DNA of 50,722 bases from contig JAAZEB010000247.1 in assembly GCA_012512505.1 (NCBI GenBank), positions 1 to 50,722 on the forward strand, in the 5' to 3' direction. This DNA comes from Armatimonadota bacterium (GTDB taxonomy: Bacteria > Armatimonadota > JAAZEB01). Each line of letters opens with the position of its first letter. Within the stretch, counting starts at the first letter, position 1. The position numbers and the translations under genes are program-made. The notes beneath the pieces are model-generated. The model did no database searches, was not told the origin of the DNA, and worked only from the letters and a program-made list of their open reading frames with translations. Shown here piece by piece: positions 8,753 through 19,326 of this stretch.

Positions 8753-8882
8753 GGCTCCCCAGTAGCCGCGGGGATCACAGGTCGCGCGCTGGCGCGGCGA
8801 ATCCCGGGCACCGCGAATGCCCATGCGCGGTAGACAACCCACTGATGGTTTCCTGACCAGCACCCGAAAGGCACAACGCACC
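8753..8882 (+). promoter_or_regulatory. Long structured leader of the TPR gene
   Basis: GGGGATCAC (8770-8778) and GCGAATCCCGG (8797-8807) can pair through GGGAT/ATCCC around a CGCGC/GCGCG hairpin. Next come two stems that exclude each other: GGGCA/TGCCC and ACCGCG/CGCGGT (8810-8834 area). The same two boxes in the same order occur in the leader at 24815-25037. It is not a match to any riboswitch class I can name with confidence. Confidence 0.35.
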
Positions 8883-10817
8883 ATGCAGCGACGGGCGGTT
8901 GTCCTCTTCTTCTTCCTGGGTATGGCTCTTCCGTGGCCGGCGGCGGCTGCCGAAGCCCCCGCGCCGCTGGCGATTGTCGCGGCGGTTCCCGCTGCCGCCG
9001 GCGGCCTCCGCATTCCTGATCCGCTCACCGCGGTCACCGCGGACACCCTGGGGCGCGCCCTCGCGCAGATCGCGGGCGTGACCATCGCCAGCCCCAGCGG
9101 CGTCTATCACGCCTCCCTGGCCGTCGGTAACGAGGGCGTCACCACCCCGGAGATCGCCGCGAAGACCGCTCAGCGGCTGCAGGCACGCCTCGCCATTCTG
9201 GTGCAGGCCGCCGTGGCCGACCAGGGGTTGACGCTGACCGGCACCCCCGCCCTCCCGGAGGCGGGCCGCGGTAAGGCGCCGGCGCCGTTCCAGGCAGCCG
9301 GCAAGCTGCAGATCGACACCGACCGCTTCACCATCCTGAGCGACTTCGTTCAGGCCGCCATCAAGGCGCTGGAGCTCAAGCCCACCGCGGAGGAACAGCA
9401 GCGGATCAATCGGATCGTGCGGGCAACGGCCTCGCCCAAGGCGTTTGACCTGTATGCCGAGGCGCGCCAGCAGATGCTACTCGGCTCGCTGGAAGGCTAC
9501 CAGACCGCCGTGCTGCGCCTCCAGGAGATAGTCCTCGGCACCGGTGCTGGCAACGCCATCCCCCCGGTGGACGACCGCTTCGCGCTGGCGCACGCGGCGC
9601 TGGCGGAGTCGGCGGCGCTGCTCAGCATGCAGCAGGCGCTGGTTGGCTTGCGCGACAACCGCCTGAAGACGATGGCGGTGCGCGCGGCGGAGGCTGCCGT
9701 CAAGCTGGAGCCGGGCCTGCCAGACACGCACCGCGCGCTGGCGTTGGCCTGCGCGCTAGTCGAGCGGCACCGGCAGGCGGAGCAGGAGGCCCGGGAGGCG
9801 CTCCGGATCAAGCCGAACGACCCCGGCGCCCACCTCTGGCTGGGCGTGGCCCTCGGCGGTGATGGCAAGGCCGAACTGGAAACAGCCCTGAAGCTCGACC
9901 CCAGCCTGGGGCTGGGCCACCTCTTCCTCGCCGTCCTGGCCGCCGCCGAGGGCAACAAGGAGGTGCTGGCAGAGGAGTGCCGCAAGGCGCTGGCGCTCAG
10001 CCCGGCCGACCCCTCCCCCTCCCTGCTGCTGGGGATGATCTACACCGGCGAAGGCAAGATAGACGAGGCGGTCGCCACCTACAAACAGGCGCTGATCGCC
10101 AACCCGCGCGCCGCCCTGGCGCATGGGGCACTCGCCCGCATCTACTACCGTCGGGGGCAGAAGGAGCTGGCCACCGACTCCTTGAAGCAGGCGTTTGGCC
10201 TCGATTCCCGCATCGCCCAGATGATGCGCGAGCAGGCGGCCACCTACCAGCAGGCGGGCAACTGGGAAGAGGCCGAGAAGGAGTACCAACTCATCCTCCT
10301 CGGCGACCCCAACGACCCGGAGTCGCTGCGCGGCCTCGGCACGCTGGCGCTCGACCGTGGCCGGCTGGAGGATGCCGAGCGCTACTATCGCCAGGCACTG
10401 ACGGTGAGCCCCAAGGACGTGTGGGCCTGGATCGGTCTGTCGCGCTGCCACCAGCGGCAGGGGAAGGACGAGGAGTCGCTTCAGGATCTGCGCCGCGCCG
10501 TTGACCTACAGAACGAGGATGCCACGGTGCGCGGCGCCCACCTGGAGCGCGGCCGGGCCTACCTGGCGCTCGGGCAGGCCTACCAACAGCGCAACCGCAC
10601 CCAGGAGGCCCTGGAGGCCTACGACAAGGCGGTGGAACTGCTGAACACGCCGGACGCTCATTTCCTGCGCGCTCAGCTCCTCGAAACGGCGCAGCCGGCG
10701 CAGGCGCCCGCGGCCTGGCAGGCGTTCCTGGATGCCGTCGAGGTGATCGGCGGCCCGAAGAGCGACCGCGACAAAGAGCGCGTGGCCTACGCCCGGCAAC
10801 GCCTGCGCCGCGAGTGA
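8883..10817 (+). CDS. Secreted TPR-repeat protein
   Basis: The chosen start, ATG 8883, gives a clean signal peptide (RRAVVLFFFLGMALPWPAAAAEA); an earlier in-frame start at 8817 would bury it. The mature part, about 620 residues, has an N-terminal alpha/beta region (25-170, with a stretch resembling an OMP-assembly or CsgG/TolB-type N-domain, tentative) followed by about nine tetratricopeptide units from 190 to 610 (for example ALAHGALARIYYRRGQKELA). TPR proteins of this size usually act as periplasmic scaffolds. It has its own promoter (8717-8746), and a GC-rich nested hairpin separates it from the convergent ABC gene. The partner is unknown. Confidence 0.88.
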   Translation: MQRRAVVLFFFLGMALPWPAAAAEAPAPLAIVAAVPAAAGGLRIPDPLTAVTADTLGRALAQIAGVTIASPSGVYHASLAVGNEGVTTPEIAAKTAQRLQARLAILVQAAVADQGLTLTGTPALPEAGRGKAPAPFQAAGKLQIDTDRFTILSDFVQAAIKALELKPTAEEQQRINRIVRATASPKAFDLYAEARQQMLLGSLEGYQTAVLRLQEIVLGTGAGNAIPPVDDRFALAHAALAESAALLSMQQALVGLRDNRLKTMAVRAAEAAVKLEPGLPDTHRALALACALVERHRQAEQEAREALRIKPNDPGAHLWLGVALGGDGKAELETALKLDPSLGLGHLFLAVLAAAEGNKEVLAEECRKALALSPADPSPSLLLGMIYTGEGKIDEAVATYKQALIANPRAALAHGALARIYYRRGQKELATDSLKQAFGLDSRIAQMMREQAATYQQAGNWEEAEKEYQLILLGDPNDPESLRGLGTLALDRGRLEDAERYYRQALTVSPKDVWAWIGLSRCHQRQGKDEESLQDLRRAVDLQNEDATVRGAHLERGRAYLALGQAYQQRNRTQEALEAYDKAVELLNTPDAHFLRAQLLETAQPAQAPAAWQAFLDAVEVIGGPKSDRDKERVAYARQRLRRE

Positions 10818-10938: not shown

Positions 10939-11610
10939 CTAATCGCGGGGGCGAATGCGGCCATCGCGCAGCTCGACCACCCGGTCGGTCTGCTGTGCCA
11001 GTGACAGGTCGTGCGTGGCGATGAGGATCGCCAGCCCCTCGCGCTGCAGGTCGCGCAGGATCGCCAGGATCGCGTCGCGCGAGCGGTGCTCCAGCCGGCC
11101 GGTCGGCTCGTCGGCCAGCAGCAGCTTTGGCTGGTTCACCAGTGCCCGGGCGATGGCCACCCGCTGCATGTCGCCCCCGTTGAGCTGGTCCGGGAAGGCA
11201 TCGGCGTTCGCCCCCAGGCCCACCTTCTCGATCAGCGCCGCCACGCGCTCCGGGTCGCGCCGCCGGGCGAAGACGAGCGGCAGCTCGATGTTCTCGCGCA
11301 CCGTCAGCGTCGGGATCAGGTAGAAGAGCTGGAAGATGAACCCGATGCGGTCGCGCCGGAACGCCACCAACTCCTTCTCCGGCAGCGCGGTCACCTCGGT
11401 GCCCAGCACCCGCAAGCTGCCGCGGCTGGGCCGGTCGAGGCAGCCCACCTGATTGAGGAAGGTGGTTTTCCCTGAACCGGATCGCCCGACGATGCCTACC
11501 ATCTCACCGCTTCGCACCGTCAGGCTCATCCCGGCCAGGGCGTGGATCTCCTCCGCGTCCCGCCGGTAGGTCCGCCACACGTCTTGCGCCTCCAGCACCG
11601 TATCGCTCAT
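10939..11610 (-). CDS. ABC transporter ATP-binding protein, LolD/MacB type, with altered signature
   Basis: The 223-residue ATPase starts at ATG 11610 after GGGAGGAGAGAG. Walker A is GRSGSGKT (42-49), Q-loop Gln94, Walker B LLLADE with Glu168, and H-loop His200. The signature reads LNGGD (143-147) instead of LSGGQ, and the usual TGNLD reads TGRLE. It is the last gene of the run that begins with the permeases upstream and lies 13 bases after the other ATPase. With that ATPase it should energise the FtsX-type permeases. The altered signature suggests it may be the weaker half of a heterodimer with one active and one degenerate site. Confidence 0.93.
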
Positions 11611-11623
11611 CTCTCTCCTCCCG

Positions 11624-12367
11624 CTACCGCTGCTCTCTGCCCGCGCACTCGCACACCCGCCCCTCATCCAGCCGCACCACGCGATGCGCGTGTGTCGCTA
11701 CCTCCTGATCGTGCGTGGCCAGGAGGATGGTGAGTCCTTCGCCGGCTAACTCCTGGAAAAGCCGGAGAATGTCATCGCGGGTGCGCGTGTCCAGGTTGCC
11801 GGTGGGCTCGTCGGCCAACACCAGGCGGGGGTGGTTCACCAGGGCGCGCGCCACCGCCACGCGCTGCTGCTCGCCGCCCGACAGCTCCGCCGGCCGGTGC
11901 CCGACCCGGTGCCCGAGGCCCACCCGCTCCAGCAGCTCGCGCGCTCGGGCGCGGTTTGGCTTGCCGGTCCAAAGCTGGGGCATCGCCACGTTCTCCAGGG
12001 CGGAGAGGGTTGGCATCAGGTAGAACTGCTGGAAGATGAAGCCGATGTTCTCCCGCCGGATCCGGGCCAGGGGCTCTTCACTCAGCCTGCCGGCGCCCTC
12101 CCCCACCGGGTGGCCCACAACCGTCAGCCGCCCGGAGGTGACCCGATCCATCAGCCCGAGCAAGTTGAGGGTGGTGGTCTTGCCGGCGCCGGAGGGTCCC
12201 AGCAAGCAGACGAACTCGCCAGGCATCAAGGTAAGGTCCACCCCCTTCAGCGCCTGGATCACCTCCGCGCCTCGCCGGTACGCCTTCACCACCTTCTCGG
12301 CTCGCGCCACCACTGCTGGCGTCTGCCCGCTTTCCTCGCCGCGGACCGCCACGGTCTTCTCCGCCAT
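11624..12367 (-). CDS. ABC transporter ATP-binding protein, LolD/MacB type
   Basis: The 247-residue ATPase starts at ATG 12367 behind GGGAGGAGAGTG. All motifs are canonical: GPSGAGKT (Walker A), [15 protein letters not shown] (signature), [12 protein letters not shown] (Walker B and D-loop) and ATHD (H-loop). The N-terminus has about 25 extra residues ahead of the domain. It lies between the permease gene (48 bases upstream) and the second ATPase gene, so it is the natural energy source for the two permeases. MacB/LolD-type systems move substrates by mechanotransmission across the envelope rather than through a classic channel. Confidence 0.95.
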
Positions 12368-12415
12368 CTGCACTCTCCTCCCGCGTGGGTGGCTCCTCAT
12401 CACTCTCCCAACCGC

Positions 12416-13618
12416 CTACTCCGTTCGGATCGCCTCCATCGGGCTGACGCTAGCGGCGCGCCAGGCGGGATAGGCTCCGGCGACCACCCCGAGGCCCACC
12501 GCCAGGAGCATCGCCGCCCCGAAGACCGGCCAGGAGAACCCGATCAGCGCCCCCTTCGGCACGGAGATCAACGCCGTCTTTGCCAGCACCCCCTTGATGA
12601 ACGCCTCGGTGCCCCGGCTGGCCACCAGCGCCAGGGCGGTGCCCGCCAGACCACCAGCGGCGCACATCAGCACCGTCTCCGCCCAAATCAAGCGGAAGAC
12701 GTCGCCCGCGCTGGCGCCGACCGCCTTCATCATCCCGATCTCCCGGGTGCGCTCGAAGACAGCCATCAGGATCGTGTTCAGCACCCCCACGGTGCCAATC
12801 GCAATCGCCACCAGGACAATCGCCAGCACGAACACCTTGGTGTTTTGCACCAACTGCCCCATCGTGCTTAGCAACTCGGTGAGCGGGAAGACGTTCATGT
12901 TCGCCTCAGACCGCTTCAGGGCATCCACCACCGGCGCCACGTTCGCCACGTCACTCACCTTCACCAGGATCACCACAATCCGCTCGGGCAGGTGGAACAC
13001 CCGCTGCAGCGTCGCGAGCGGCAGGAAGAAGAAGCCATCGTCCTGGGTGGCGGTGGGCTCCAGGATGCCGCCCACGCGGAAGGTGGCGTCCACAGTGAAG
13101 TTGCCGCGCGCCTCGTAGATCCGGTAGGGATCCCCCACCTTCAGCCCCAGCGCCTCGGCGACGCTGGCCCCGACGATCAGCGAGTCCTCCCCGGTGAACC
13201 AGCCGCCCTCCCGGAAGCGCCAGTTCTGGCGCAGGTTGCGGAAGTGCTCGTCTACCCCCAGGAAGATCTGGTTCTTTTCCTGGGCATTCTTGGCGATGAT
13301 CGCGTCCATCAGGATGCCGGCGCTCTCAGCGATGCCGGGCACCGCCCGGACCTTCTCCAGGTACTCTTCCTTAAGATAGCGCGGCCACTTGCCCCCGTGC
13401 AGCACGATGGTGGAGGCCTCGTAGGGGCAGCCCTTGGGCACCACCATGATGTGCGCGCCCAGGGCGTTCAGGTCTTCACGCAGGCCCTTCTCGTAGCCCT
13501 GCTGGAACTCCAACAGGCTGTAGAGGACCGCGATGGCGACGGCCACGCCAGCCACGGTGAGCGTAGTGCGCACCGGCCGCCGCCGTAGGTTCTTCAGTGC
13601 CAGGCGGAACCATACCAT
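12416..13618 (-). CDS. FtsX/MacB-type ABC permease with GCPYEA motif (first of pair)
   Basis: This 400-residue permease starts at ATG 13618 (GGAGGTGG upstream). It has one N-terminal membrane helix (about 20-38), a periplasmic domain of about 220 residues, then three helices (about 270-390) with the FtsX signature (NTILMAVFERTREIGMMKAVGA). The periplasmic domain begins with a conserved stretch, GCPYEAST (Cys64). The partner permease upstream has the same motif at the same residue. The gene sits 22 bases after that permease and ahead of the two ATPases, so all four probably form one transporter. The substrate is unknown; a metal, a thiol compound, a cofactor or a lipoprotein are options. Confidence 0.93.
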   Translation of the reverse strand: MVWFRLALKNLRRRPVRTTLTVAGVAVAIAVLYSLLEFQQGYEKGLREDLNALGAHIMVVPKGCPYEASTIVLHGGKWPRYLKEEYLEKVRAVPGIAESAGILMDAIIAKNAQEKNQIFLGVDEHFRNLRQNWRFREGGWFTGEDSLIVGASVAEALGLKVGDPYRIYEARGNFTVDATFRVGGILEPTATQDDGFFFLPLATLQRVFHLPERIVVILVKVSDVANVAPVVDALKRSEANMNVFPLTELLSTMGQLVQNTKVFVLAIVLVAIAIGTVGVLNTILMAVFERTREIGMMKAVGASAGDVFRLIWAETVLMCAAGGLAGTALALVASRGTEAFIKGVLAKTALISVPKGALIGFSWPVFGAAMLLAVGLGVVAGAYPAWRAASVSPMEAIRTE

Positions 13619-13640
13619 ATCTCTCTCCACCTCCCCCGCG

Positions 13641-14903
13641 CTACTCGGCACGCAGCGCCTCGATCGGCCGGGCCCGCGAGGCTTTCAGCGCCGGGTAGAT
13701 CCCGGCGACCACGCCCACCACCAGCACGAACAGCAGGCACAACACGAAGAGGCGCGGCTCCAGGGCGACCACGCTACCTTTCACCCCCGCCAGCAGCTCC
13801 ATGCGCGCCATCGCCCCCTTCAGCACCCCCTCGAGGGCGCGGGCACCGACCACCGCCAGCGCCAACCCAACGCCCCCGCCGATGCCCACCATCAGCATCG
13901 TCTCCAGCCAGATGAGCTGAAAGACGTGGCTCTGGCCGGCGCCGGTGGCGCGCATCACCCCGATCTCCCGCGTGCGCTCGAAGACCGACATCAGCACCGT
14001 GTTCAGCACCCCCAGGGCGCTGATGGCGACCACCACGAAGACGATGGAGAAGATGAGCGTTTGGGCTGAGCCCAGCAGGTTCTGCATCGTGCCGAGAAGC
14101 TCGCCCATCGCCACCACCTCGGCGCCCTCAATCGTCTCCAACTGCTCGGTGATGGCATTCGCCTTCGCTGGGTCGCTGAATCGGATCTGCACGGTGGTGA
14201 TCTGGCCCGGCTGGGCGAACATCGCCTGCGCGGTTTTCAGCGGCACGAAGAAGAAGCCATCATCCTGCTGCCCGGTTGGCGCCAGCACGCCCACCACCTT
14301 CAAGGCGCGGTCGAGCTCGGGGATGTAGATCTCGTCGCCGACGCCGGAAAGCTCGATGAGCGCGGCGTCAAACCCCAGGATGACGGCGTTTGGGTCGGCC
14401 ATCGCCCGGACGAAGTCGGCTCGGGTCATCAAGTTGGCGGGGTCGGCAGCCAGCTTCTCCCAGTCATTTTGCAGCGTCTGCGCGTCGAGGCGCACCTTGA
14501 GGATCTTCCACCAGTTCTTCAGGTCGAAGGTGCGTTCGTCGATGCCGAAGTAGACATCGGCCCGTCCCTCATCAGGGCGACTGATGGCGCTCATGAACGC
14601 CGGCGCGGCAATCTGGATTCCGTCGATCTGATCCACGGTGGCGACGGTGCGCTCCGGCAGGTGGTTGTCGATCTTGCCGCCCTTCATCAGCAGCGAGGCG
14701 GCCTCGTAGGGGCAGCCGATCGGCAGCACCATGGCGTGGACCCCCATCTGCTGAAGCTGCCGGTTCAGCGCCTGGCGGTAGCCCTTGTTGAACGCCAGCA
14801 GAGTGAACAGCACCGCCACCGCCACGGCGATGCTCAACACCGTCAACCCGGTGCGCACCCGGCGATGAAGTAGATTCCGCAGCGCGAAACGTAAGTATGG
14901 CAC
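13641..14903 (-). CDS. FtsX/MacB-type ABC permease with GCPYEA motif (second of pair)
   Basis: The best start is GTG 14903, nine bases after GGGAGGG; GTG 14909 is too close to it, and ATG 14939 would add a non-hydrophobic tail. The 420-residue protein repeats the plan of its neighbour: helix at 20-38, periplasmic domain with GCPYEAAS (Cys64), then three C-terminal helices with NTVLMSVFERTREIGVMRATGA. Its periplasmic domain is about 20 residues longer (around FDLKNWWKI and DFVRAMADPN). The two permeases likely form a heterodimer. About 200 bases with repeats separate it from the OB-fold gene upstream. Confidence 0.92.
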   Translation of the reverse strand: MPYLRFALRNLLHRRVRTGLTVLSIAVAVAVLFTLLAFNKGYRQALNRQLQQMGVHAMVLPIGCPYEAASLLMKGGKIDNHLPERTVATVDQIDGIQIAAPAFMSAISRPDEGRADVYFGIDERTFDLKNWWKILKVRLDAQTLQNDWEKLAADPANLMTRADFVRAMADPNAVILGFDAALIELSGVGDEIYIPELDRALKVVGVLAPTGQQDDGFFFVPLKTAQAMFAQPGQITTVQIRFSDPAKANAITEQLETIEGAEVVAMGELLGTMQNLLGSAQTLIFSIVFVVVAISALGVLNTVLMSVFERTREIGVMRATGAGQSHVFQLIWLETMLMVGIGGGVGLALAVVGARALEGVLKGAMARMELLAGVKGSVVALEPRLFVLCLLFVLVVGVVAGIYPALKASRARPIEALRAE

Positions 14904-14944
14904 AAGCACTCTCCCTCCCGTGGGGGATGGTAGCGGCATCAGGG

Positions 14945-15053
14945 TCGGAGACCCTCCTACATCAGGTGCGCGGTCGGATCGCCGGCGACCCGCCGGCCCG
15001 CCGTAGGAGGCGTCTCCAACACCGGTCGGTCGGAGCGCCGGCGTCCCGCCGGC
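14945..15053. repeat. Two copies of a dispersed palindromic repeat
   Basis: The 27-base core (14971-14997 and 15027-15053) begins CGGTCGGA and ends in the perfect hairpin GCCGGCG-WCC-CGCCGGC. Each copy has a GGAG/CTCC-rich stretch just upstream, and a third copy lies at 50696-50722. It occupies most of the gap between the OB-fold and permease genes and may act as an intercistronic hairpin. Confidence 0.75.
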
Positions 15054-15111
15054 CGCCGTTGGGCCAGCGCGCTCCTCCTATGGACCACGTCCCCCGGCGG
15101 CGCCGACGCCG

Positions 15112-15498
15112 CTAGAGCTTCGCCCCAATCGCGGCGATCTGGGGCGTGCCCGTTTCGCTGACGGACACGGAACCCCGCACCGTGATCTCCGACCCGGTCT
15201 TGCCCAGGGGCATCGCCCACCCGGACGCGGCGGTATCAAAGCGGATGCTGCCAGTGCCGTCGTTCACCACGCCCCAGCACCCGGAGGAGGGGCACTCCTC
15301 GGTCAGCTTGCCTTTCACCACCACCTCTTTGCCATTGTAGGCTTCTGGATTGGCCGTCAATTCGCCAATCGTGGTGATGGTGGCCTCCGCCGGCACACCC
15401 TGCCCCAGGTCCGCCTGGCCCCCAGACGGGCCGGCCACCAGGTAGATCGCGGCGGCCAGCACCGCCAGCACGACAACAACGATCGCTGCGCTCTTCAT
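15112..15498 (-). CDS. Membrane-anchored or secreted OB-fold protein with C-x4-C loop
   Basis: ATG 15498 follows AAGGAGG and starts a 128-residue protein with an N-terminal hydrophobic helix (4-22). The rest fits a small OB-fold (ATITTIGELTANPEAYNGKE, EITVRGSVSVSE). A loop holds CPSSGCW (Cys69 and Cys74), as in DUF4920-like proteins; the two cysteines could form a disulfide or bind a metal. It lies ten bases after the porin gene stop, so the two are co-transcribed. It lacks the heme-binding His of CcmE, which has a similar fold, so it is not that chaperone. Role unknown, in the envelope. Confidence 0.8.
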   Translation of the reverse strand: MKSAAIVVVVLAVLAAAIYLVAGPSGGQADLGQGVPAEATITTIGELTANPEAYNGKEVVVKGKLTEECPSSGCWGVVNDGTGSIRFDTAASGWAMPLGKTGSEITVRGSVSVSETGTPQIAAIGAKL

Positions 15499-15508
15499 CC
15501 TTGCCTCC

Positions 15509-16582
15509 TTAGAACTCCACCAGGAGTTGTGCCGTGACCATCGTCTCATCCATACGCATGCCCCCCTCCCTGGCCCGGCTCTGTTGCAGGACCAGACGGA
15601 GGGTCTGCCGGTCGTTCAACTTGTGTTCCACGCCGGCCCAATAGCCGGTCAGCGCGCCGGAGAACTGGCTCCAGCGCTCCGTGCCGGCTTCCAGCGAGGT
15701 CTGATAGCTCAGGGGATAGCTCACCTGAAGCCAGTGCCCGTAGGCGCCCCGCCCGTCGTCATCGCCGGCCACCACCTCCGCACGCAGAAGAAGCGGGCCG
15801 CGAGAGTACTCCGCGTCCAGGGCCACACGCTGCTTGTGGCTGAACTCCAGCACCTGGGCGGTGCCCATCACTGGATCGGACATCAGCGAGAAGACCGGGA
15901 GCACGCCGGCAAGCGCCGAGAGGCCCAGCCGCAGTTCGTCGGCACCGACGGTGATCGTGCGGCTCAGGCGCGCGGTCAGCACCTTGTTGCCGTTGTTGTC
16001 GCTGCGGAAGGCGCCGTTCCCGGTGGTGAGGGCGACCTGGAACGTGGTCTCGCGGCCAAGGAACCCCTCCACCTCCACGCCCGGATCGATGCGCACGCCC
16101 ACGCTGTAGCGGTAGAGCGTCTGCACCGGCCGGGTGTGCGTCTCGTAGTCGGGCAGGTTGCCGAACGGGATCACGAACTGCCCGAGTTTCACCGTTGGTT
16201 CGCCCAGCTTCCGCCGGTAGATGGCGTAGAGGTTGCCGAAGTGCATGTCGCGCCCCCGCCCCTCCATCGAGGTGTAGAGCGGAATCTGGACGGCATACTC
16301 CAGGTGCTGGCCAATCTCGCCGGTGATCTCCGCCTCGGCGGCCATCACGTCCAGCGTGGTCGGACCCTCGCTGCTGCCCATCGCCCGGGTATCAAGGCGG
16401 TAGCGAATCTGGTAGCGCCGCCCAGTGGGAGAGTCCCGCTCGCCGGCGGCCGCTTCCTCCGTCACGGCCGCCGTCACCGCCGGCGGGGCGGTACTCTCGG
16501 CGTCTACCGCCAGCACGGCCGGCCCTCCTGCTGCCAGCAGCGCCAGCGTCGGCGCCAGCCATCGTGCCCGCAATGCGTCCAT
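15509..16582 (-). CDS. Outer-membrane beta-barrel, porin-like
   Basis: The 357-residue protein has a signal peptide (WLAPTLALLAAGGPAVLAVDA) and then alternating amphipathic strands typical of a 14-18-stranded barrel (for example FGNLYAIYRRKLGEPTVKLGQFVIPFG). It ends in LLVEF, a C-terminal aromatic residue as recognised by the Bam machinery. GQFVIPFGNLPDYETHTRP resembles the pore-facing region of phosphate- or anion-selective porins, but this is weak. It lies between the FMN_bind-like gene and the OB-fold gene on one strand. It could be the outer-membrane exit or entry path of the ABC system downstream, or simply share its regulation. Confidence 0.83.
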   Translation of the reverse strand: MDALRARWLAPTLALLAAGGPAVLAVDAESTAPPAVTAAVTEEAAAGERDSPTGRRYQIRYRLDTRAMGSSEGPTTLDVMAAEAEITGEIGQHLEYAVQIPLYTSMEGRGRDMHFGNLYAIYRRKLGEPTVKLGQFVIPFGNLPDYETHTRPVQTLYRYSVGVRIDPGVEVEGFLGRETTFQVALTTGNGAFRSDNNGNKVLTARLSRTITVGADELRLGLSALAGVLPVFSLMSDPVMGTAQVLEFSHKQRVALDAEYSRGPLLLRAEVVAGDDDGRGAYGHWLQVSYPLSYQTSLEAGTERWSQFSGALTGYWAGVEHKLNDRQTLRLVLQQSRAREGGMRMDETMVTAQLLVEF

Positions 16583-16641
16583 CGTGCATCGACCTTCCGA
16601 TCCATCCGGCCACTCGCGCCCGGCGGCGCGAACGCCGCGCG

Positions 16642-17211
16642 CTAGCCCAGTTCGTCTAGCAGCACCAGCAGCTTCTTCACCGAGAAGGCGACCGTGTGCG
16701 ACGACTTCTCCGCACCCTTGGCGGCGGGCTCGATGTCGCGGCCGATGGTGATCGGGTCCGTGGCGCGCTTACCCTCGAACTGGTCCAGGAACGCCTTGCC
16801 GCGCAGCGCCTGGCGGGCGCGCTCGCGGTCGCGCTGGATGCCCACGCCCTTCACCTTGCCAGCGTTGTCCACCGCCACCACCACCTCAATCGCTCCGTAC
16901 TGCCCTTTGCCAAGGTGGGTGAGGATGGTGCCCACGCGCTTGCCGTCGTCGAGGATGCGGTAGAACTTGAACTCGCTCTCGTCGGCATCGAGGCGGGCGC
17001 CGATGCGCTGCTCGATGGCGGCGCGGCGCGATCCAGGGCGCTTGTACTCCGTTTCGTAGGTATCCGCGCCGGGGAAGAACCGCTTGATGTCCTGGTCCGG
17101 CTTGCGCCACACGCACAGGGCGGCCTCCGCCGCGGGGCGCGCCAACAGGATGGCGATCCCACTCAGGGCGAGAACCGCCGCCAGGCGGCGGAACTGCTTG
17201 CTCTGTCTCAT
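16642..17211 (-). CDS. Secreted FMN_bind-like protein lacking the flavin-attachment Thr
   Basis: ATG 17211 gives 189 residues with a signal peptide (RRLAAVLALSGIAILLARPAAEA). Residues 70-185 fit the FMN_bind fold known from NqrC, RnfG and NosR (GAIEVVVAVDNAGKVKGVGI, then FLDQFEGK). In that family ApbE links FMN to the Thr of a D-x-x-S/T-G-A-T motif. Here the matching place reads KGAEKSS (166-172), with Glu instead of Thr, so covalent flavin is unlikely. It may bind a cofactor non-covalently or act structurally. It heads the porin, OB-fold and ABC run; 59 bases separate it from the porin gene. ATG 17226 is a possible alternative start. Confidence 0.68.
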   Translation of the reverse strand: MRQSKQFRRLAAVLALSGIAILLARPAAEAALCVWRKPDQDIKRFFPGADTYETEYKRPGSRRAAIEQRIGARLDADESEFKFYRILDDGKRVGTILTHLGKGQYGAIEVVVAVDNAGKVKGVGIQRDRERARQALRGKAFLDQFEGKRATDPITIGRDIEPAAKGAEKSSHTVAFSVKKLLVLLDELG

Positions 17212-17472
17212 CTGCTCTGCTCCCATGGGCGCCCACGAAAGCGCCCTCCATCCGCGAATCCGGGTAGGATTGATGACCCGGCGGGGCAGCCCGCCGCCAC
17301 TCCCGCCCGCGCCCCAGGCGCCTGGCGCCGCGCGCGCTGGCCGTTCACCAGCCGCGTGGGCTGCCATGTGTGGAAACGAAGGCATCAGGAGAAGGCGGGG
17401 TCGGTCGGTGCCGCCCCGGGCCTGTAGCACTCCTTTACCGGCCGAGTCGACCGGAATGGTGAACCTTCAGGC

Positions 17473-17988
17473 TCAGTGGGATGGGGGAGCGCGACCGGCA
17501 TCCGGCCGCGAGGCACATTGAGACCTGGGATTCAGGACCAGGTCCGGGGGAATCTGGAAGGTAACGCGCGAGGGATCGAGCACCACCGGCACGGGCAGCA
17601 GGGCTGCCTGGGGCAGCACGCACACTAGCGGCGCGCGCCCCCGCTTGGCGGCGGGCTCGAAGCTGGCCGGCATCTCATCGGGGGCCGGCTGCGTGACGCA
17701 GGGGCAGCTCATCCCGATGGGCGTCGGCGACGCCGACACCGGCTGGGCGGATCCTGCCGAGTGAGCGGCAGCACCATCGTGGCACGAGGAACTGGCCGCG
17801 GTGGACGCGCCTAGCGTGCAGCAACAGCCAGCCATCGTGGCGTTCGACGCGCACCGGCAGGCGGCCGGCACCGCGTCTCCCTCCCGGGATGGGCAGGGCG
17901 AGCCGAGAGTGCTCGCCACTGGTCCCAAGAAGAAGGCGACCAATGCCAGCAGCGCCGTCAGTCCACGTTGTGCTCTTGTTCGTCTCAT
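17473..17988 (-). CDS. Secreted cysteine-rich protein of unknown function
   Basis: The 171-residue product has a clear signal peptide (GLTALLALVAFFLGPVASTLG) and eleven cysteines, several clustered (CRC, GCCC, SCPC), with SSCH and Pro-rich linkers. Such patterns are common in small periplasmic metal-handling proteins found near copper or heavy-metal genes, but I do not recognise a defined family. Start ATG 17988 (or GTG 17994) has no strong ribosome-binding site. It points the same way as the FMN_bind-like gene, 261 bases upstream of it. The gap between them contains a 12-bp palindrome (CCAGGCGCCTGG, 17314-17325) and no obvious promoter. Confidence 0.65.
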   Translation of the reverse strand: MRRTRAQRGLTALLALVAFFLGPVASTLGSPCPSREGDAVPAACRCASNATMAGCCCTLGASTAASSSCHDGAAAHSAGSAQPVSASPTPIGMSCPCVTQPAPDEMPASFEPAAKRGRAPLVCVLPQAALLPVPVVLDPSRVTFQIPPDLVLNPRSQCASRPDAGRAPPSH

Positions 17989-18070: not shown

Positions 18071-18259
18071 CTATGCCAGGGGGCGCTTGAAGAAGTAAGT
18101 ATAGGCCACGACCGCCACCAGTTCCCAGCCCTCCTGCCCGAACTGGTTCAGAACTTCGGGGTCCTCCCGCTTCCCCAGTTCGGGGGCGGGCTTCCCGTCC
18201 ACGACCCAGCCGCCCACGTGCTCGCTGCGATAGACGATCTTGTACTCCCAACGCTGCAT
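18071..18259 (-). CDS. DUF4177-like small protein
   Basis: ATG 18259 after GAGGG gives 62 residues. The sequence MQRWEYKIVY, then GQEGWELVAVV and YTYFFKRP, fits the small DUF4177 family (a WEYK start, an EGWEL centre and a basic end). Members are mostly cytoplasmic, of unknown role, and occur alone. It lies 29 bases after the glycosyltransferase gene and probably ends that operon. Confidence 0.85.
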   Translation of the reverse strand: MQRWEYKIVYRSEHVGGWVVDGKPAPELGKREDPEVLNQFGQEGWELVAVVAYTYFFKRPLA

Positions 18260-18288
18260 CGCATGGCCCTCCGCCAGCCGGCCGGCGC

Positions 18289-19326
18289 TCAGGGGGACTG
18301 AACGACGCGCGTGATGCGCGCCACCCAATGCGCCAGCGTCATTCCCTGCTCCACCAACTCCCGGCCCCGCCGGCCCATCGCTGCCGCCTCCACGGGGTGA
18401 TCCAGCAGATAGTTCAGCGCCCGTGCCAGCGCCACGGCGTCGCCGGGAGGCACCCACAGTCCGGCCTCGCCGTCGGCGAACGCTTCCTTGAGGCCGGGGT
18501 TCGCCGTCGCCACCACCGGGCGCGCCATCGCCATCGCCTCCAGCAACGCGGTGATCCCCGCCTGGAAATCGACCGCCGCTACCGGCACCGCCACGACCCG
18601 CGCGCGCCGATAGAGATCGCGCAGCTCCGGGTAACTGACCCCGGGCAGGAAGGAGACGTTCCCGCCGGCCGCCGGGCCAGCGGCGTCGCCGCGCTGTCTA
18701 GACCAGGGGCTGCGGGCGAGAATGCGAACAGGGCAGTCGAGCCGCGCGGCGGCAGCGGCCAGGGTGGCGTAGTCGCGCCGCTCGCGCCCGACGCTGCGCA
18801 CCAGCCGCTCTGGCTCGGTGCCATCGGGGCGGAAGAAGTGGGCGTCGGCGTGGAAGGCGATGCGGTGAATGCGCTCGGCGGGCAGGCCCAGGCGGCTGAG
18901 GCACTCTGCCTGCACCCCGGCGTAGCAGAAGACACCGCCGATCTGGCGGCGCACCCCGGGCCAGCGCAGCAGGGCGCGCTTCCAGCGTGCCGTAACCCGG
19001 TGGGCGATGAAGTAGACGGGGGGCGAGCCGTGCCCGGCCAGGAGGGCGCACAGCGGCAGGCCCAGCCGCTCCGAATCGCATACAAACCGGTCCACCGCGT
19101 GGCGACGCAGGAAGGCGGCGGCAACCTGCGGCAGCCAGGCGGCGCCGCGCCGCAAACCGCGCCGAAGCGCCGGCGGCAGCGCGCGGGTGGCTGCCGCACG
19201 GTCGAGGATGGTGGCGCCGAGAGCGTCGGCCAGGGCGTGGTAGTCCGGCGTGGGTCGCCGGCCGGAGGCCGCCTCACACCGGTCGGCCGGCCGGTCTTCG
19301 GTCGAGATCAGCAACACGGTGCGCAT
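18289..19326 (-). CDS. Glycosyltransferase, GT-B fold (GT4-like)
   Basis: The 345-residue protein has the two Rossmann-like halves of GT-B enzymes. The C-terminal donor-binding half shows FLPGVSYPELRDLYRRARVVAVPV, then GITALLEAMAMARPVVATANPGLKEAF with the E-x7-E type region, and DGEAGLWVPPGD, all typical of GT4. The N-terminal half is shorter and Arg-rich. It should transfer a sugar from a nucleotide donor to an unknown acceptor, perhaps cell-surface polysaccharide. ATG 19326 has GGGAGAG in front and lies inside the 3' end of the kinase gene (53-base overlap, different frame), implying translational coupling. Confidence 0.88.
   Translation of the reverse strand: MRTVLLISTEDRPADRCEAASGRRPTPDYHALADALGATILDRAAATRALPPALRRGLRRGAAWLPQVAAAFLRRHAVDRFVCDSERLGLPLCALLAGHGSPPVYFIAHRVTARWKRALLRWPGVRRQIGGVFCYAGVQAECLSRLGLPAERIHRIAFHADAHFFRPDGTEPERLVRSVGRERRDYATLAAAAARLDCPVRILARSPWSRQRGDAAGPAAGGNVSFLPGVSYPELRDLYRRARVVAVPVAAVDFQAGITALLEAMAMARPVVATANPGLKEAFADGEAGLWVPPGDAVALARALNYLLDHPVEAAAMGRRGRELVEQGMTLAHWVARITRVVQSP

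Follow-up and report, generated by a model that had tools for sequence, protein, structure and literature searches.

The window, a 50,722-nucleotide contig from the MAG of an Armatimonadota groundwater bacterium, contains an eight-gene operon which we interpret, with a probability of about 0.6, as a copper-type (thiophilic metal) detoxification or trafficking system, built on a type VII ABC heterodimer and headed by a periplasm-sensing arrest leader similar to CruR and CutF. This envelope machine is undescribed, and we know of no type VII ABC system with a role in metal handling; a literature search on FtsX together with YHS or copper found nothing relevant. The initial annotation had proposed a trans-envelope system handling a metal or a thiol compound. 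The metal half of that proposal is now backed by the leader family, which heads copper and heavy-metal efflux operons elsewhere, and by YHS, BlaI/M56 and ArsR/SmtB neighbours, and the thiol half has become the main rival reading.

All eight open reading frames assigned earlier to the minus strand at 10939-17988 are present (Table 1). Gene 2 starts at ATG 17211 and not at 17430, as the part upstream of 17211 lacks conservation, and gene 4 starts at 15498. A TPR gene on the plus strand (8817-10817) is convergent to the operon and lies outside it. Directly upstream of the leader there is a small DUF4177/Sp36-like gene (window 18071-18457; also L154:1688-1876), found in two genera of the family and absent in the third. 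The gap between genes 4 and 5 (14935-15110) is a dispersed repeat, with some copies in tandem and at least 50 matches listed in the genome, 76-93% identical excluding the self-match.

Table 1. Features of the operon in window coordinates.
Feature	Position	Strand	Description
Gene 1	17473..17988	-	Cys-rich leader of 171 aa with 11 Cys, probably exported (signal-peptide-like N terminus); probable RAPP arrest peptide that senses metal
Gene 1 RAPP codons	17482..17493	-	Stop is 2 residues further on
Gene 1 invariant CxC	17698..17706	-	RAPP Arg is 69 residues downstream
Leader-to-operon spacer, 261 nt	17212..17472	-	Presumed control region
Gene 2	16642..17211	-	Periplasmic protein with the RnfG/NqrC (FMN_bind) fold; flavinylation motif missing
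Gene 3	15509..16582	-	Porin-like beta-barrel, outer membrane
Gene 4	15112..15498	-	OB-fold protein, membrane-anchored, with CPSSGCW
Gene 5	13641..14939	-	Type VII ABC permease 1 (MacB_PCD + FtsX), GCPYEA
Permease 1 GCPYEA	14700..14717	-	
Gene 6	12416..13651	-	Type VII ABC permease 2 (MacB_PCD + FtsX), GCPYEA
Permease 2 GCPYEA	13415..13432	-	
Gene 7	11624..12403	-	LolD/MacB-type ABC ATPase
Gene 8	10939..11667	-	Second LolD/MacB-type ABC ATPase

The leader peptide and its relatives

The product of gene 1, in which the initial annotation had noticed eleven cysteines (our count agrees) and overlooked the leader-peptide nature, ends in RAPP just ahead of the stop codon. Such a leader heads this operon in ten genomes, and all ten copies carry R[AG]PP at the C terminus and a hydrophobic, signal-like N terminus, with C44, C57, C95/C97 (the CxC), R166, P168 and P169 invariant. 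The leaders at the same place in the nine other genomes are 19-36% identical to the window copy and have the four cysteines and the terminal R[AG]PP in common with it, and little else. Since third codon positions are the most variable between the window gene and its L031 counterpart (identity 0.51/0.62/0.38 by codon position), gene 1 is coding and its frame is under protein-level selection. In the DNA examined 31 of 10,495 open reading frames end in R[AG]PP, and 20 of the 22 Cys-rich ones belong to the gene 1 family (repeat copies of a locus counted). No Pfam family matches gene 1 at E<=1.

RAPP is a ribosome-arrest motif, proven and structurally explained in other systems (PMC10951233; proven also in PMC9426467), and RAPP/RGPP peptides are enriched upstream of copper genes (PMC12992588). 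CruR of Bordetella (DUF2946) and CutF of Rhodobacter are copper leaders by experiment and share the build of the gene 1 family, whose export is probable: they are small exported proteins with a Cys motif and a C-terminal RAPP or Pro-rich stall motif, encoded by the first gene of a copper operon (PMC9426467, PMC9973294). The copper response of CruR requires both RAPP and CXXC (PMC9426467), while CutF requires its Cys motif and Pro-rich tail (PMC9973294). Gene 1, for its part, does not match the Pfam DUF2946 model, has four invariant cysteines and heads an ABC operon, a setting that goes unmentioned in the main text of both papers. ApdA, ApdP and the S. lividans arrest peptides are also similar: each is a small exported protein, encoded upstream of the gene it regulates, that has R[AG]PP close to its C-terminal end (PMC10951233, PMC12992588); beside them the gene 1 family, from Armatimonadota, is new, and arrest by it is putative. 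Judged by its sequence, gene 1 is a probable metal-sensing RAPP arrest leader; it resembles a sensor protein that is short-lived and brings the ribosome to a stall.

What such a leader would sense is suggested by its relatives. A profile built only from the ten leaders of this operon and run against 291 genomes recovered 11 further RAPP leaders (lower-scoring matches without RAPP, L187 and L198-L201, were left out of the count), and 9 of the 11 head metal-type genes. YHS proteins lie downstream of three of the nine, in three genomes, and one of these sets was read through to a CopA-like ATPase (L207: YHS-YtkA and on to the ATPase, 604 bits). The other sets are OEP-MFP-CusA/CzcA (1323 bits, cut-off 701) with a P-type ATPase (L202), HMA-P-ATPase-MFP-RND with a Cu P-ATPase at 580 bits (cut-off 397; L205), YHS-MFP-RND (L204), one MFP-RND set, one HMA-MFP-RND set and, in L196, a small protein rich in Cys. 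By score, neither L204 nor L206 has an RND pump of the CusA kind. Because the sister leaders head clear export operons, it is most economical to infer that metal excess turns the present operons on, as with CutF, and because ordinary copper-export operons of related bacteria have a leader of the same family, protection of the cell against copper or a similar metal is the machine's probable role. The two other leaders (L210:5469-5822 and L208:1399-1806, in G288 and G227) have no evident operon, of metal type or other, behind them and are possibly relics. A second RAPP-ending open reading frame (L202:21-500, G014) precedes an ArsR-like gene; the leader that belongs to the CusA/CzcA operon itself follows 2.3 kb downstream.

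Gene 1 might instead monitor protein export (Sec/YidC) in the manner of ApdA and ApdP, with the operon acting as a general envelope-stress response. RAPP peptides of Actinobacteria and alphaproteobacteria do control sec genes (PMC10951233), and gene 1 looks exported; nevertheless, the invariant CxC and further cysteines at fixed spacing, the lack of a sec gene downstream and the metal genes behind the sister leaders make an export monitor quite improbable.

The metal-sensing reading is consistent with the position of the cysteines. The (last) CxC is found 63-69 residues before the RAPP arginine in 18 of 21 leaders, the remaining three having a cysteine at 60-66, and the spacing has a standard deviation of 7.0 compared with 24.6 for rotated sequences (minimum 12.4 in 2000). 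About 65 residues span the ribosome tunnel and the Sec channel, and therefore the Cys cluster would have arrived at the mouth on the periplasmic side by the time RAPP is in the peptidyl-transferase centre. The 45-residue spacing in CruR, by comparison, suits a cytoplasmic sensor at the tunnel exit. We propose that gene 1 belongs functionally with CruR and CutF, as a sensor that acts while nascent and under export: RAPP would stall the ribosome two codons ahead of the stop just as the CxC/CCC cluster, 63-69 residues nearer the N terminus, begins to leave the Sec channel on its periplasmic side, and metal binding at this nascent cluster would alter the stall and switch expression of the operon. 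The constant spacing leads to a clear prediction, namely that periplasmic metal is read by a nascent protein still inside the ribosome. Overall, the RAPP region shows weak masking of the Shine-Dalgarno (SD) sequence (combined p 0.008 across related loci, with three loci suggestive at p 0.01-0.04), and the window gave no such hairpin (p = 0.48), which leaves SD masking by the RAPP codons as a suggestive lead. RNA folds of the spacer regions gave no shared hairpin by eye, and there was no strong case for a rut-like C>G stretch.

The permease pair and its envelope partners

The assignment of two FtsX permeases and two ATPases holds, with Pfam/NCBIfam matches to MacB_PCD and FtsX for the former, which score best with LolC/E and MacB, and to ABC_tran (LolD/MacB type) for the latter. 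Both permeases carry GCPYEA, and its cysteine is residue 64 in both, as noticed earlier, if the starts are ATG 13618 (gene 6) and GTG 14903 (gene 5). In an alignment of 162 FtsX-type permeases every operon permease examined has a cysteine after the first periplasmic strand (GC[PA][YFM]), and about 95 others, MacB and Lol among them, all lack it. That GCPYEA is a general MacB trait, which the initial annotation had named as counting against its reading, is rejected, as MacB has FQGR or YPG at this site and the cysteine is confined to one subfamily. With the motif masked, the 62 GCx rows still form one clade (SH-aLRT 98), in which the branching of the permease 1 and permease 2 clades looks much the same, as if mirrored. 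Since each permease contributes one GCPYE cysteine, a permease dimer always has two, which may together form one bis-thiolate metal site.

The one exception to this pattern is a distant permease from a Vibrio campbellii plasmid (L120:3673-11397), which also has the cysteine, as GWCAYE; a Tn3-type transposase is found there beside ArsR (ArsR/SmtB), an OB-like protein, the permease, an ATPase, TlpA, SMR and a P-type ATPase, and the set is possibly a sister system. In a deltaproteobacterium (L047:2269-3645) two LolD-like ATPases are fused (459 aa), and there is an extra FtsX permease without GCPYEA.

Like LolCDE, MacAB, FtsEX and YbbAP, the operon combines FtsX/MacB_PCD permeases with a LolD-like ATPase. 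It differs from these type VII ABC systems in its GC[PA][YFM] signature, its own clade, a heterodimer with up to two ATPases and the lack of a MacA or TolC gene in the cluster. The scores with LolC/E and MacB, and the fact that the gene 4 homologue is a lipoprotein in several relatives, would also suit a Lol-like machine dedicated to sorting or activating the OB lipoprotein, or else the barrel, that carries no metal. We regard this as improbable, since it leaves the permease cysteines, CPxxGCW and the metal-type leader unexplained.

For the partner proteins, the earlier assignments stood for genes 3 and 4 and in part for gene 2. The gene 3 barrel has a homologue that scores above the Pfam Porin_4 cut-off. 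Gene 4 contains CPSSGCW and its OB fold is confirmed, with E. coli YgiW among the matches, although it stays below the family cut-offs (DUF4920 17.8 bits, cut-off 25; stress_OB 18.7, cut-off 35). Gene 2 had been called FMN_bind-like, which is correct for the fold: in Foldseek its AF2 model (mean pLDDT 86.8) matches only RnfG/NqrC proteins at E<0.001 (RnfG 9eri_G, E=3.4e-7). The Pfam FMN_bind model, however, matches neither gene 2 nor anything else in the genome, and at the aligned flavinylation site, [ST]GA[ST], the window family has KGAE or DGAD in place of SGAT; unlike for RnfG/NqrC, the cluster contains no ApbE. Gene 2 relatives on Ideonella and Sphingomonas plasmids adjoin ApbE (FAD:protein FMN transferase) and do carry SGAT or SGGT, and so by its sequence gene 2 is probably not flavinylated. 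The periplasmic redox role through flavin implied by the initial annotation is therefore rejected, the FMN_bind model being silent in the whole genome and the motif lost.

The same annotation had drawn a parallel to iron uptake of the P19/FTR1 type. In Campylobacter such operons combine two FtsX-type permeases with an ATPase and with proteins of thioredoxin or FMN type (PMC6083913; C. jejuni 1649-1656), a content that our gene set resembles. The present operon instead has an OB protein, a barrel and a RAPP leader and lacks P19, FTR1 and a DUF2318-type membrane protein; P19 and FTR1 are both absent from the entire genome, the FMN-fold protein has lost its flavin site, and the sole Iron_transport matches in the phylum (G017) come without such an operon. 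We have rejected the analogy, and iron uptake of this type is very improbable here.

For the metal-handling machine that we favour, we propose the following. The two permeases, with their MacB-like periplasmic domains, would form a heterodimer driven by one or two LolD-like ATPases, and this ATP-driven inner-membrane machine would act through force transmission. Metal or a metal-laden partner would be handed between the anchored OB-fold protein (CPxxGCW), the FMN_bind-fold protein, itself redox-dead, and the outer-membrane barrel in those operons that have one; the identity of the metal and the direction of transport we infer. Tentatively, and with somewhat less confidence than the metal reading itself, the set can be seen as a new ATP-driven class of envelope metal systems, combining a type VII ABC heterodimer with a GCPYE thiolate site, a flavin-less FMN_bind protein, an OB-fold metal carrier and a RAPP leader reading periplasmic copper. 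If true, thiophilic metal joins lipoproteins, drugs and cell division among the tasks of this class of machines, flavin-type folds are reused without flavin, and dozens of genes from poorly known phyla, so far labelled just 'hypothetical' or 'ABC permease', acquire one function.

Distribution and neighbouring genes

Relatives were found by a permease search and then by a gene 2 profile run through 291 Armatimonadota genomes. The profile hit 29 genomes, of which at least one (G258, L173) has the ordinary FMN_bind/ApbE kind with no cluster in the stretch read. The cluster occurs in about 25 Armatimonadota genomes scattered across many families, and conservation of gene order, on which the initial annotation had made its reading depend, is found in many of them, beyond what chance would give. 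There are two layouts: leader, barrel, FMN-fold, OB, permease 1, permease 2, ATPase, ATPase, and a shorter, OB-first one with OB, FMN-fold, permease 1, permease 2 and ATPase, without a barrel. Outside the phylum, single-permease sets are found in Omnitrophota, Kiritimatiellota, an Obscuribacterium MAG and a deltaproteobacterium, and a candidate division WOR-3 contig has the permease pair. A mobilizable Massilia plasmid from tungsten-mine soil carries the row ArsR/SmtB, barrel, FMN-fold, OB, permease (GCPMEA), ATPase and DsbD_N, adjoining recombinase and transposase genes. Such a patchy spread suits an accessory, transferable trait.

The neighbours of these operons provide a second, independent line of evidence for a thiophilic metal. 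YHS metal-binding proteins adjoin the operon in three lineages (L042, L055, L156), BlaI with an M56 peptidase that has a Cys pair in its N-terminal half in L041, L043 and L055, and ArsR/SmtB in L119. The leader is not present in OB-first operons or in those outside Armatimonadota, and where it is missing other Cys-bearing sensors (M56 with BlaI; ArsR/SmtB) adjoin; for these operons the metal reading is indirect.

Some neighbours, on the other hand, are of a sulfur type, and the main rival is that a thiol or sulfur compound (cysteine, a glutathione-like thiol, a persulfide) is moved across the envelope, with the cysteines serving thiol exchange as in CydDC. The cysteines in both permeases and in the OB protein would fit this, and so would DsbD_N in the Massilia row and a TauE gene that follows the porin in L160. 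In G001 (L031:2659-6903; names read from sequence) the stretch immediately ahead of the leader, which would fit as well, holds an Rrf2 regulator, two genes of cysK type and one of cystathionine gamma-synthase type. However, each sulfur-type neighbour is confined to one lineage, while YHS, ArsR/SmtB, BlaI/M56 and above all the Cu/RND operons of the leader family indicate metal, and we consider thiol transport unlikely.

Two further neighbours were seen. In the OB-first layout a prepilin-type ([25 protein letters not shown]) gene follows the ATPase in at least six genomes (L165, L167-L171), which may reflect a link to the operon or merely its abundance in the phylum. In Bacillota (L041:8281-8553, L043:6419-6700) a small membrane protein that belongs to no Pfam family and contains YGCHIEIEI is encoded beside BlaI, M56 and the GCPYEA permease.
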